A stretch of 64,000 nt of DNA from Leptotrichia sp. oral taxon 223 (GTDB lineage: Bacteria > Fusobacteriota > Fusobacteriia > Fusobacteriales > Leptotrichiaceae), in contig NZ_JABXYU010000001.1 in the NCBI RefSeq assembly GCF_013394795.1, positions 1,550,001 to 1,614,000 of the forward strand. The letters run 5' to 3'. Positions 23,655 through 58,226 of the stretch are shown here, piece after piece. The first letter of the stretch is position 1, and each line of letters starts with the position of its first letter. The notes below the pieces were generated by a model. The model was not told the DNA's origin and searched no databases. It saw nothing but the letters and a program-made list of their open reading frames with translations. A program made the position numbers and the translations under genes.

Positions 23655-24126
23655 AAAATTACACCTCCTTTAATTTTTTTAATATACTCGAGCTTTTTTA
23701 AAATCGAACTGAATTAAATTAGGCAAAACTAGGGTTTGGGTAGATTAGTTATGACTTTTAAGTCCGTTTCAAAGCAATTTTATTATAACTTTAAAATTAT
23801 ACTTCTACTAAAAATTTACTTAAACAAAGTTTATATAGATAATTATGATTATTTTATTTAAATTTCAAAACTCCAATACTTGTCACTTTTGTATAATAAC
23901 AATCTTCTAAACAATTTATTTTTGTAACTATTTAAGTATAATTTTCAATCATATTCTTTATGATTTTATGTTATTATTATACAAATCTATAAATAGAAAT
24001 TATTTAACAATTTCTTTTAATTATATTATTTTTTTGTAAGTTTTTTATATAGTTGAAAATGTAAGGGCAGCAGATACCATGCTTTCAGTATCGTTTGGTT
24101 TTTTCAATTCAATATTTGAGTATATT
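23655..24126. repeat. Gene-free interval with a dispersed intergenic repeat
   Basis: These 470 bases contain no supportable gene. At 23694-23795 there is a copy of a degenerate repeat also found near 48441, 57391, 60118 and 60663 (shared blocks include TTTAAAATC, TTTGGGTA, ACTTTTAA and TTTTATTATAA). A hairpin with GATAC and GTATC arms lies near 24075-24095, close to the end of the convergent lyase gene. Confidence 0.55.
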
Positions 24127-25320
24127 TTAAATCTTTTCTTTTAAAATAGCCTCTTTTAACTGATTTACAGCTTTTTCCAGGACAGCTCTTGGACAAGCAG
24201 CATTTAACCTCATGAATCCTTCAAGCCCTTTTTGATACACACGTCCTTCATTCAATCCCAGTTTTGCTTTTGTAAGCATGAATTTTTCCAGCTTCTCCTG
24301 ATTAAATCCAAATTTTTGGCATAGTTTTCGGCAGTCTAACCATACCAGATATGTTGCCTGCGGAATGTTTGGCGTAATTTCTGGAATATATTCCTTGAAA
24401 AAGCTGCTTAAAAATAAAATATTGTTTTCCAGATATTCCTTTAACTGTTTTAAGTATTCTTCTCCACCGTCAGAATATGCGGCGATTGTAGCAACTAAAT
24501 TAAAGGGATTGTTTCTGTGAACTTCCAGATCTTTCCAAAATCTGTCAAATTTTTTCTTCACTTCTAAATTATTGAAAATAATTGTTGCACTTTGAAGTCC
24601 TGCAAGATTAAAAGCTTTTCCAGTGGAAGTGCAAGTTATGGTATTTTGTCTGATTTCTTCTGAAATGCTTGCCATTGGGATGTGCTTATTGTCCCACAAC
24701 GTCAAGTCGGCGTGAATTTCATCGGATATTACAGGGACTTTGTATTTTACGCATAAGTTTCCGATTGCTTCCAATTCATTATGAGTCCATACATGCCCTA
24801 ATGGATTGTGGGGATTGCACAAAATAAATAATTTTGGATTTTCCTTCAGTTTATTTTCCAAGTCTTCCAAATCAAGCGAGTATTCTCCATTTTTTTCAAT
24901 AAATCTGTTTTCAATGACAACTCTCGCATTATCTTCGTTAATATCGTAAAATTCTGAATAAACAGGTGTCTGAATCAATACTTTGTCACCCTTTTCAGAG
25001 AAAATCTGCACTAATGCCCCAAGACTTGGCACAATCCCAATGCTAAAGCTAAGCAGTTCCTTTTTTGGCTCCCAGCCAAATCTTCTCTTCTGCCAGTTTA
25101 TAACCGACTCAAAATACTCATCTGGACGGTATACATAGCCAAAAATTCCATGCTGAACTTTTTTTTCAAGAGCGTCAATTATAGGCTGCGCTGTCTTAAA
25201 ATCCATATCGGCAATCCAAAGCGGTATGACGTCATCCACTCCAAATTTTCTCATTAGCTCTTTATACTTCACAGAATGATTATTTTTTCTGTCAATAATT
25301 TCATCAAAATTGTATTTCAT
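24127..25320 (-). CDS. MalY/PatB-type pyridoxal-phosphate C-S lyase
   Basis: This 397-residue fold-type I aminotransferase-like protein matches MalY/PatB, whose usual activity is cystathionine or cysteine beta-lyase, releasing pyruvate, ammonia and a thiol or H2S. Features include IPLWIADMDFKTAQPI near the N-terminus, CNPHNPLGHVWT, SDEIHADLTLW with the pyridine-nitrogen aspartate, and the lysine in TSTGKAFNLAGLQ. Oral fusobacteria and leptotrichiae make H2S with such enzymes. AAAAGGATG precedes the ATG. A TetR regulator is divergently transcribed from 25423, so regulation by it is likely. Confidence 0.88.
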   Translation of the reverse strand: MKYNFDEIIDRKNNHSVKYKELMRKFGVDDVIPLWIADMDFKTAQPIIDALEKKVQHGIFGYVYRPDEYFESVINWQKRRFGWEPKKELLSFSIGIVPSLGALVQIFSEKGDKVLIQTPVYSEFYDINEDNARVVIENRFIEKNGEYSLDLEDLENKLKENPKLFILCNPHNPLGHVWTHNELEAIGNLCVKYKVPVISDEIHADLTLWDNKHIPMASISEEIRQNTITCTSTGKAFNLAGLQSATIIFNNLEVKKKFDRFWKDLEVHRNNPFNLVATIAAYSDGGEEYLKQLKEYLENNILFLSSFFKEYIPEITPNIPQATYLVWLDCRKLCQKFGFNQEKLEKFMLTKAKLGLNEGRVYQKGLEGFMRLNAACPRAVLEKAVNQLKEAILKEKI

Positions 25321-55799: not shown

Positions 55800-56735
55800 T
55801 TATAAGCTGTTTTCCCTTAAATATTCTTCCACGTCAAGTCCTGCAATTGCTCCGCTTCCTGCCGCAATTATTGCCTGCTGGTATCTGTTGTCCTGAACAT
55901 CACCTGCTGCGAAAATTCCAGTAGCACTTGTTTTGGAGGATTTTCCTTTTGTTACAATGTAGCCTCTGTCGTCAATTTCGATTTTTCCTTCAAGGAATTT
56001 TGTGTTTGGAGTTCTTCCAATTGCTACAAAAATTCCATCTGCTGCTAGAGTTTCAGTTTCGCCTGTCTTGTTATTTATGAGCTCTATTCCTGTAACTTTT
56101 TCATCGGCTAGCACTTTTTTGGGAGTGTAGTCTAGTTTCCATTCGATTTTGCTGTTGTCTTTTGCTCTTTTTTGCATAATTGCTGAAGCACGTAACGTAT
56201 CTCTTCTGTGAATAACTGTAACTTTGTTGGCAAATTTTGTTAAAAAGACAGCTTCTTCCATCGCAGTATCGCCACCACCGATTACAACGACATCTTTTCC
56301 ACGGTAGAAAAATCCATCACAAGTGGCACATGCACTAACTCCTTTTCCGATATTTTCCTTTTCGTTTTCAATTCCAAGATATTTTGCACTTGCCCCTGTT
56401 GATAAAATTACCGTTTTTGTTTTTATAATATTTCCATTATCCAAATGTAATTTAAATGTTTTTTTCCCATTATTTTCAATATCTTCAATGTCCTTTACAA
56501 CAGCCTGTAAAAATTCAGTTCCAAAATTTTTGGATTGAGCCTTTATGTCTTCTATTAGCTGCGGGCCTGAAATTCCCTGTGGAAATCCTGGAAAGTTTTC
56601 AACTTCGGTTGTTGTTGTCAATTGCCCACCTGGCTCCATTCCATTTATAATTATATTTTTTAATCCTGCACGGCTTAAATAAATTGCGGCTGTCAGTCCT
56701 GCCGGCCCTGAACCGATAATTACTGAATCATACAT
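55800..56735 (-). CDS. trxB: Thioredoxin reductase
   Basis: This 311-residue flavoprotein passes electrons from NADPH to thioredoxin. The FAD motif GSGPAGLTAAIYLSRAG is at residues 8-24, the redox-active CATCDG is near 136-141, the NADPH motif GGGDTAMEEA follows, and the C-terminal FAD site is GIFAAGDVQDNRYQQ. It lies 165 bases downstream of trxA on the same strand. A hairpin lies between the genes, so trxB may be read partly through it. AGGAATG precedes the ATG. Confidence 0.95.
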   Translation of the reverse strand: MYDSVIIGSGPAGLTAAIYLSRAGLKNIIINGMEPGGQLTTTTEVENFPGFPQGISGPQLIEDIKAQSKNFGTEFLQAVVKDIEDIENNGKKTFKLHLDNGNIIKTKTVILSTGASAKYLGIENEKENIGKGVSACATCDGFFYRGKDVVVIGGGDTAMEEAVFLTKFANKVTVIHRRDTLRASAIMQKRAKDNSKIEWKLDYTPKKVLADEKVTGIELINNKTGETETLAADGIFVAIGRTPNTKFLEGKIEIDDRGYIVTKGKSSKTSATGIFAAGDVQDNRYQQAIIAAGSGAIAGLDVEEYLRENSL

Positions 56736-56822: not shown

Positions 56823-56859
56823 AAGTCTAGCAAAATTGAAAAAAACAACCGCTAGACTT
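56823..56859. terminator. Hairpin between trxA and trxB
   Basis: AAGTCTAGC at 56823-56831 pairs perfectly with GCTAGACTT at 56851-56859. The minus-strand T-run is short, so it could be a leaky terminator after trxA or a processing signal. Confidence 0.55.
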
Positions 56860-56900: not shown

Positions 56901-57212
56901 TTACAATACTTGGTTTATTTCTTCGTAAAGTGATTCTTTTGAGTGTAAACCAACTAATTTTTTAACAGGCTTTCCATCCTTGAATAAAATTAATGTAGGA
57001 ATGCTTTGGATTCCAAAAGATTGTGCTAGTTCCAATTGTTCGTCCACGTTTACTTTTCCAATTGTAGCTTTTCCTTCCATTTCACTTGAAAATTCTTCAA
57101 TAATAGGAAGCTGCATTTTACAAGGTCCACACCATTCTGCCCAGAAATCCACTAGAGCCACCCCATTTGCAATGCTTTGTTCAAAATTATCTTTATTTAA
57201 ACTTAATGCCAT
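56901..57212 (-). CDS. trxA: Thioredoxin
   Basis: This 103-residue protein has the classical WCGPC active site near residues 28-32 (DFWAEWCGPCKMQLPI) and the cis-proline loop QSIPTLILF. It is the cytoplasmic disulfide reductant and would feed MsrA. GAGGTTGATG precedes the ATG. The promoter is probably TTGATT-17-CATAAT on the minus strand just below 57308, next to a 26-bp palindrome. The divergent neighbour is an ArsR-rhodanese regulator. Confidence 0.96.
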   Translation of the reverse strand: MALSLNKDNFEQSIANGVALVDFWAEWCGPCKMQLPIIEEFSSEMEGKATIGKVNVDEQLELAQSFGIQSIPTLILFKDGKPVKKLVGLHSKESLYEEINQVL

Positions 57213-57307
57213 TTTACATCAACCTCTTTCTTTAGTCATTTTTGTTAAGTTTGTAATTTATAGTTTATTTTTTAAAATAATTATGTTATACTATCTTTAG
57301 AAAATCA

Positions 57308-57333
57308 ACTATTCAATTAACTAATTGAATAGT
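57308..57333. promoter_or_regulatory. Perfect palindromic operator next to the trxA promoter
   Basis: Twelve-base arms (ACTATTCAATTA at 57308-57319 and its complement at 57322-57333) flank a two-base centre with no mismatch. The core ATTCAAT...ATTGAAT resembles known ArsR/SmtB operators. It abuts the probable -35 box of trxA. The neighbouring ArsR-family protein is the natural candidate to bind it. Confidence 0.65.
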
Positions 57334-57507
57334 ATCATATTTAAAATAAATTGTCAATATTTTTATTACAAAATTTTAAAAATGTGCTCAAACTGCTTCA
57401 ATATTAAATTGGTTAAGGTCAAATGAACTTGGGGCTTAAAATAATCATAACTTTTGAATTTAATGAGATTTAGTATAGATGTGGAAAATAGAAAGGAGCT
57501 TAATTAA

Positions 57508-58164
57508 ATGGATAAAATATGTGAAAACTATAAAAATAGCCTGTATTCAGGATTGTCAAAAATTGGAAAATGCCTGTCCAGCGAAAAAAGAATCGAAATA
57601 CTGGATTTACTTGTACAGGGCTCAAAAACTGTGGAAAGTATTTCAAATGAAACAGGGATGAGTATTGCCAACACTTCAAGGCACTTGCAGGTTTTAAAGG
57701 ATGGAAATTTGGTTATTAGTGAAAAAAAGGGAAATTATGTTGTTTATGAAATCGCAAATACGCAAATAATTGATTTGGTGTATCTTTTAATTGGGGTAGG
57801 AGAGCAGCAACTGGCAGATATTCAGCGAATACACAATGAGTTTAATGATAGCTGCATGAAAATCCGTCCAATTACTTTGGAGCAGGCTTACGAAATGGCA
57901 AAAGACAGAGAAGCTTTAATAATAGATTTACGTCCGGAAGATGAATTTAATTCAAGTCATATAGAAAACGCAATAAATATTCCAATGAAAAATCTTGAAA
58001 AAAATTTAAAGAAATTACCAAAAGATAAGGAAATAATCGTTTATTGCAGAGGACGGAACTGCGCCTATGCAAATCTTGCTTCCAAACTCTTGAATGACAA
58101 TGGATTTCATGCTTACAGCCTGAATCAAAGTTATTATGATTGGCAAAAATATGATAATTTTTGA
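57508..58164 (+). CDS. ArsR-family regulator fused to a rhodanese domain
   Basis: This 218-residue protein has an ArsR/SmtB winged helix at about residues 15-95 (SSEKRIEILDLLVQGSKTVESIS, then TSRHLQVLKDGNLV) and a rhodanese domain at about 120-215. The rhodanese loop CRGRNCAY near residue 180 has the catalytic cysteine plus a second cysteine five residues later. Such fusions are known as thiol or persulfide sensors. Its place opposite trxA, with a perfect palindrome between, suggests that it senses sulfur or oxidant stress and controls thioredoxin genes. AAAGGAGC lies before the ATG. Confidence 0.88.
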   Translation: MDKICENYKNSLYSGLSKIGKCLSSEKRIEILDLLVQGSKTVESISNETGMSIANTSRHLQVLKDGNLVISEKKGNYVVYEIANTQIIDLVYLLIGVGEQQLADIQRIHNEFNDSCMKIRPITLEQAYEMAKDREALIIDLRPEDEFNSSHIENAINIPMKNLEKNLKKLPKDKEIIVYCRGRNCAYANLASKLLNDNGFHAYSLNQSYYDWQKYDNF

Positions 58165-58185: not shown

Positions 58186-58220
58186 AGAGACTATTTCAAA
58201 AAACTTTTGAGACAGCCTCT
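58186..58220. terminator. Bidirectional terminator between the ArsR-rhodanese gene and the nucleotidase
   Basis: Arms at 58186-58201 and 58205-58220 pair over 16 positions with three wobble or mismatch positions and a three-base loop, then seven T on the plus strand. Its TTTTGAGACAGCCTC arm is also the reverse complement of the GAGGCTGTCT start of the repeat at 48441. Confidence 0.75.
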
Positions 58221-58226
58221 ATTTTT

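Follow-up and report, generated by a model that had tools for sequence, protein, structure and literature searches.

To our knowledge, the ArsR-family sensors of persulfides and peroxide that have been described carry their reactive cysteines within the DNA-binding domain or its short extensions. RexT of Nostoc, a member of the ArsR/SmtB family, controls trxA2, senses H2O2 via the vicinal pair Cys40-Cys41 in alpha3 and binds to ATTCG-N15-CGAAT (PMC8960804). The persulfide sensors SqrR, BigR, HlyU and YgaV belong to ArsR SSN cluster 4, and their sensor is a cysteine pair placed in alpha2 and alpha5 (PMC10509353).

The locus examined here lies in the window, by which we mean the whole 64-kb stretch of Leptotrichia DNA that was analysed. 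The regulator proposed below resembles RexT in being an ArsR-type repressor of a thioredoxin gene that works through redox-switching cysteines and an ATTC-type palindrome, but it has no vicinal cysteines, carries a rhodanese domain and would use the site TATTCAA-N8-TTGAATA. Like SqrR, BigR, HlyU and YgaV it is of the ArsR type and is associated with sulfane sulfur and with genes for rhodaneses or persulfide dioxygenases; their ArsR-domain cysteine pair, however, is absent, and here a sulfurtransferase domain is fused to the regulator. In the literature searched, whose coverage mostly left out subscription journals, ArsR-rhodanese fusions were nowhere described as regulators of thioredoxin.

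Among PDB entries, the ArsR half of the protein is matched best in sequence by Mb0332 (PDB 2kko/3gw2), of which residues 1-100 only were solved. Mb0332 corresponds in M. bovis to Rv0324 of M. tuberculosis and is likewise an ArsR-rhodanese protein. Rv0324 has been studied as a hypoxia-linked regulator (PMC4916473), and the literature searched did not name it together with a rhodanese.

The regulator and its rhodanese loop

The gene and the parts of its product are located as follows.

57508-58164, plus strand: ArsR-rhodanese fusion regulator, 218 aa (open reading frame and profile matches)
57583-57717, plus strand: ArsR winged-helix DNA-binding region, residues 26-70 (HTH_5 match; AlphaFold2 model with Foldseek matches to ArsR/SmtB structures)
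57877-58149, plus strand: rhodanese domain, residues 124-214
58045-58062, plus strand: rhodanese active-site loop CRGRNC (Cys180, Cys185), the proposed sensor dithiol

The protein is a member of the ArsR/SmtB family carrying a true rhodanese domain. Its N-terminal half matches Pfam HTH_5 with 41.7 bits (E 1e-10, cut-off 22) and its C-terminal half matches the rhodanese model PF00581 with 73 bits (E 2.7e-20, cut-off 22.2), confirming the sequence-only reading, which had joined an ArsR DNA-binding domain to a CRGRNC rhodanese. The stretch YCRGRNC occupies residues 179-185. The AlphaFold2 model is good in the ArsR half and moderate overall (mean pLDDT 71.6, pTM 0.48); Foldseek matched it to CzrA, CadC, SqrR and HlyU. 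By profile search, the source genome encodes two HTH_5 (ArsR-type) proteins in total and this single rhodanese. With so few ArsR-type proteins and no other detectable rhodanese in the genome, the domain looks like a sensor rather than a part of sulfur oxidation.

We compared the cysteines of 22 fusions, which came from Fusobacteriota, Bacilli, Proteobacteria and Actinobacteria. Judged by full-length similarity, ArsR proteins with a C-terminal CRGxxC rhodanese are a widespread group, and this regulator belongs to it. The CRGxxC motif is present in 22 of 22 fusions, and no cysteine other than Cys180 and Cys185 is invariant. The regulator has cysteines at positions 5, 22, 116, 180 and 185; Cys22 and Cys116 together are kept only in the Leptotrichiaceae lineage, Cys22 also occurring in Priestia. 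What is more, the ArsR domain is devoid of any cysteine in 14 of the 22 proteins. A motif scan of all 22 ArsR domains found no vicinal CC of the RexT type. The cysteine pair of SqrR, BigR and HlyU, in alpha2 and alpha5, lies about 66 residues apart, a spacing taken from Cys50/Cys116 (PMC12423496), and the regulator has no cysteines so spaced. Against the BigR equivalog model it scores 26 bits, where the cut-off is 155.

The protein could also be read as a metal- or arsenic-sensing ArsR repressor, with the rhodanese as a passenger or metabolic enzyme. It does exceed the cut-off of the NCBIfam model 'metalloregulator ArsR/SmtB' (NF033788, 75 bits, cut-off 55), and plasmid records of homologues bear that name. 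However, neither the alpha3 CXC nor the alpha5 DxHx10Hxx(E/H) metal ligands were found by motif scan in any of the 22 fusions, whose ArsR domains mostly have no cysteine to offer, and the targets are thioredoxins rather than transporters. We rejected metal sensing on the motif scan and regard it as very improbable. Since the SqrR/BigR, RexT and metal-sensor sites are all absent and the loop dithiol is invariant, the CRGxxC loop is the likely sensor. The sequence-only reading had suggested that the loop could hold a persulfide and form a disulfide; the comparison supports the rhodanese dithiol in the role of sensor, and we consider it probable that the regulator senses through it.

The control region between trxA and the regulator gene

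The intergenic region 57213-57507 parts trxA on the minus strand from the regulator gene on the plus strand. It and the genes beyond it contain the following features.

56901-57212, minus strand: trxA, thioredoxin, the proposed target (TIGR01068 above cut-off); adjoining and divergent in 14 of 14 genomes
55800-56735, minus strand: trxB, thioredoxin reductase (TIGR01292 above cut-off); 3' of trxA in 14 of 14 genomes, with a gap of 108-218 bp
57329-57357, minus strand: trxA promoter, with -35 TTGACA (57357-57352), a 17-bp spacer, and TG plus -10 TACTAT (57334-57329; TGaTACTAT)
57284-57292, plus strand: extended -10 element TGtTATACT of a putative promoter for arsR-rhodanese, with a predicted start near 57299
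57308-57333, no strand: predicted operator, ACTATTCAATTA-AC-TAATTGAATAGT, core TATTCAA-N8-TTGAATA

Of the 60 genomes searched, 14 (this one included) encode a full-length orthologue of the regulator, namely each of the 13 that represent the genus and one from a different genus of the same family. In each of the 14, trxA-trxB stands across the same intergenic region and the palindrome is present. The check that had been proposed, a search of related genomes for the palindrome beside trxA, thus gave a clear result, the site being kept wherever the gene pair occurs. Regulator and trxA very probably share this one control site. It is probable that trxB is carried in one transcript with trxA.

The arms of the palindrome, 57308-57319 and 57322-57333, are 12 bp each and 100% complementary about a 2-nt centre. 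It had been described as 26 bp without a mismatch, which holds for the 24 paired bases and not for the central AC, which is not self-complementary. Operators of the CadC/SmtB type have a 12-2-12 form, two AT-rich 12-bp arms with a 2-nt centre. The present site shares this arm layout but differs in its inner half-site, TTCAATTA/TAATTGAA, and in belonging to a protein with no metal site. It is the sole inverted repeat in the window with arms of at least 12 bp and a spacer of at most 6. Dinucleotide-preserving shuffles of the window gave a mean of 0.1 such repeats (arm 12, spacer at most 2), and 2000 shuffles of the intergenic region gave none. In the alignment of Leptotrichiaceae intergenic regions, identity to the window reaches 98% in the core half-sites but only 57% and 79% in the two flanks.

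The palindrome had been placed abutting the trxA -35 box. Instead, it extends over the -10 and start region belonging to the conserved TTGACA-17-TACTAT promoter, whose spacing is identical in 14 of 14 genomes; an earlier apparent trxA promoter, TTGATT (57308-57303)/CATAAT, was not conserved and was rejected. The palindrome begins within the -10 hexamer and would cover roughly -12 to +15, with a predicted transcription start near 57322. A protein bound over this region should block polymerase, and an operator over the -10/start region is the classic position for a repressor. On the opposite strand, TGtTATACT is likely to be the promoter of the regulator gene; its TATACT is kept in the 13 congeneric genomes and not at locus L017. 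With a start near 57299, the operator would fall within the early transcribed region of the regulator, so that one site would serve both genes.

Alternatively, the palindrome might form a hairpin in the arsR leader RNA, acting through attenuation or stability, or be a chance repeat. The plus strand is able to form a structure of -9.2 kcal/mol, and transcripts from the putative arsR promoter may include it. On the other hand, central positions vary in one arm with no matching change in the other (TCAAGTAA forms), whereas the outer half-sites are constant, the inferred trxA start cuts the site, and the same half-sites occur at unrelated promoters in Bacilli; as for chance, no shuffle reproduced the palindrome. 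The hairpin was rejected, and we give hardly any credence to either version.

In a scan of the phylum, each of the 13 congeneric genomes contained one exact TATTCAA-N8-TTGAATA site at trxA. Three of them had a second, upstream of a Thioredoxin_9 gene (thioredoxin fold, CPDC), and the genus held no exact site beyond these; other Fusobacteriota gave scattered matches only. All 17 Leptotrichiaceae sites (14 at trxA, 3 at Thioredoxin_9) are accompanied by TTGAC(A/T)-17-TANTAT, and in each case the last base of the -10 is base 4 of the operator. The Thioredoxin_9 promoter-operator module is near-identical among the three species (L077-L079), and no operator was found upstream of the orthologous gene in the remaining ten Leptotrichia, a pattern that looks like the gain or loss of one regulon target. 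A scan of the source genome for the core with 1-2 mismatches returned 98 matches, versus 69 for the reversed pattern; since those inspected lay inside coding sequence, we claim no extra target in this genome. A two-mismatch relative of the core at 24101-24122, just past the 3' end of a PatB-family C-S lyase gene, is probably a chance match.

Two stems were also noticed near these genes. A stem, AAGTCTAGC/GCTAGACTT, at 56823-56859 between trxA and trxB is kept in the closest Leptotrichia and missing in the 74%-identity clade; it could tune trxB expression. Another stem, followed by a T run, at 58186-58226 separates the regulator gene from a convergent 5'-nucleotidase-like gene and is probably their shared terminator.

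Homologues outside the phylum

Beyond the family, the sample of homologues consisted solely of plasmid copies, and what is said here across phyla rests on them. The regulator was matched over at least 80% of the query by 198 plasmid records. Those on plasmids of lactic acid bacteria and Cytobacillus are about 40-51% identical to it, the lactic-acid-bacteria copies about 49-51%. An operator lies 10-15 bp before the regulator on plasmids of Lactiplantibacillus, Pediococcus, Leuconostoc, Levilactobacillus, Latilactobacillus and Cytobacillus. The Bacilli plasmid operator, CTATTCAA-N8-TTGAATAG, agrees at 15-16 of 16 fixed bases, a score that none of 2000 shuffles reached.

On the lactic-acid-bacteria plasmids the regulator, annotated only as 'metalloregulator', heads a run of genes for thioredoxins, trxB, a DsbA-like protein and a flavin disulfide reductase, and a further copy of the operator stands before the thioredoxin/trxB operon or the DsbA gene. 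The few control windows in these loci that scored equally high each hold a second operator directly before thioredoxin genes. Two copies, preceding the regulator and the thioredoxins respectively, were seen in the operons L049, L050, L051, L101 and L102. Such operons (e.g. NZ_CP035142, NZ_CP054261, NZ_CP120513) thus resemble the present locus in having a homologous regulator, the same operator, and thioredoxin and trxB neighbours, but they are co-directional with separate operators for regulator and thioredoxins, whereas here a single divergent site is shared. The proposal that the ArsR-rhodanese protein controls trxA through the palindrome is strengthened by the co-occurrence of gene pair and site throughout the 14 genomes and by the same operator at thioredoxin genes of another phylum; the promoter geometry first assigned to it was wrong.

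The position of the operator varies among other homologues. In Ligilactobacillus (L055) it lies before DsbA and not upstream of the regulator. In Priestia, near-copies stand in front of several genes that surround the regulator, and none precedes the regulator itself. These near-copies (TAATTCAATYAATCAATTGAATAA and kin) are at L053:174-205, 2803 and 6606 and at L054:1021, 1377 and 2764; the genes concerned are ytxJ, SDR, alcohol dehydrogenase and MFS genes, some with TTGAC-17-TATAAT. No operator was found upstream of the regulator in Leuconostoc L052 or in the beta-proteobacterial and Streptomyces homologues. Two alphaproteobacterial homologues have a related palindrome, e.g. TCATTCAA-N8-TTGAATGA, with 12 of 16 bases. 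In a tree of the 22 fusions (midpoint root) the Leptotrichiaceae copies are nested within the Bacilli group with 100/99 support, a placement that suggests horizontal transfer of the regulator.

The homologues of Actinobacteria and Proteobacteria adjoin genes for MBL-fold or MBL-rhodanese, DsrE and TauE/SafE proteins, a neighbourhood that is, by its gene content, a sulfane-sulfur setting. In Rhodococcus (L059:2012-3391) an MBL-fold protein encoded divergently from the ArsR-rhodanese gene matches a rhodanese at its C terminus and resembles CstB-type persulfide dioxygenases.

These neighbours, together with rhodanese chemistry and a PatB-family C-S lyase in the genome, favour sulfane sulfur as the signal. 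The lyase (24127-25320) scores 457 bits against TIGR04350 (cut-off 340), so that the C-S lyase read at 24127 was correctly named. Sulfane sulfur is, however, made less compelling by the disulfide-reducing make-up of the lactic-acid-bacteria operons, which contain disulfide reductases and DsbA and not persulfide enzymes. The same repressor and operator could instead serve a loop that senses disulfide or electrophile stress, such as peroxide, hypothiocyanite or low-molecular-weight disulfides, with the rhodanese fold as a mere scaffold for reactive cysteines. The lactic-acid-bacteria targets named above would suit such a function, and RexT, also an ArsR protein, already couples H2O2 to thioredoxin (PMC8960804). 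Yet the conserved CRGxxC loop is the sulfur-transfer active site of a rhodanese, and the MBL-rhodanese and DsrE neighbours in other phyla belong with sulfane sulfur. We consider a loop responding to such stress alone a tentative and rather unlikely explanation, and lean towards sulfane sulfur in particular as the signal.

The proposed switch

In our model the regulator is a homodimeric ArsR-type repressor with its fused rhodanese domain as the sensor. The resting, reduced dimer would bind the palindrome at 57308-57333 and repress trxA, trxB by read-through, and its own gene. Sulfane sulfur, as persulfide or as polysulfide, or some other thiol oxidant would modify Cys180, and Cys185 would then close a disulfide or polysulfide bridge with it. 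The modified dimer would leave the DNA and trxA-trxB would be derepressed. Finally, thioredoxin would reduce the sensor loop as well as cellular persulfides and disulfides, resetting the switch.

The steps differ in how firmly we hold them. From the conserved site and its copies at homologous genes, we are highly confident that the protein binds the operator, and only a little less so that it acts as a repressor, a direction we infer from the promoter geometry. Thioredoxin reportedly reduces protein persulfides (Doka et al. 2016, cited in PMC10509353), and resetting by the product of the target gene is on that account a reasonable supposition. The model as a whole, an autoregulated thioredoxin repressor released when its loop is persulfidated or oxidized and reset by thioredoxin, seems to us fairly likely. 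We slightly favour the broader proposal of a class of ArsR proteins that sense sulfur or redox state by the active site of a fused rhodanese, have an operator common to Fusobacteriota and Bacilli, and are stripped of sensor sulfur by thioredoxin, which would close the feedback.

A group of proteins annotated as metalloregulators appears to have shifted sensing to a rhodanese active site, controlling thioredoxin genes in at least two phyla. This suggests a possible explanation of how the thioredoxin operons on many lactic-acid-bacteria plasmids are controlled. With a defined operator, dithiol and target, the question is tractable with one protein and one DNA fragment.
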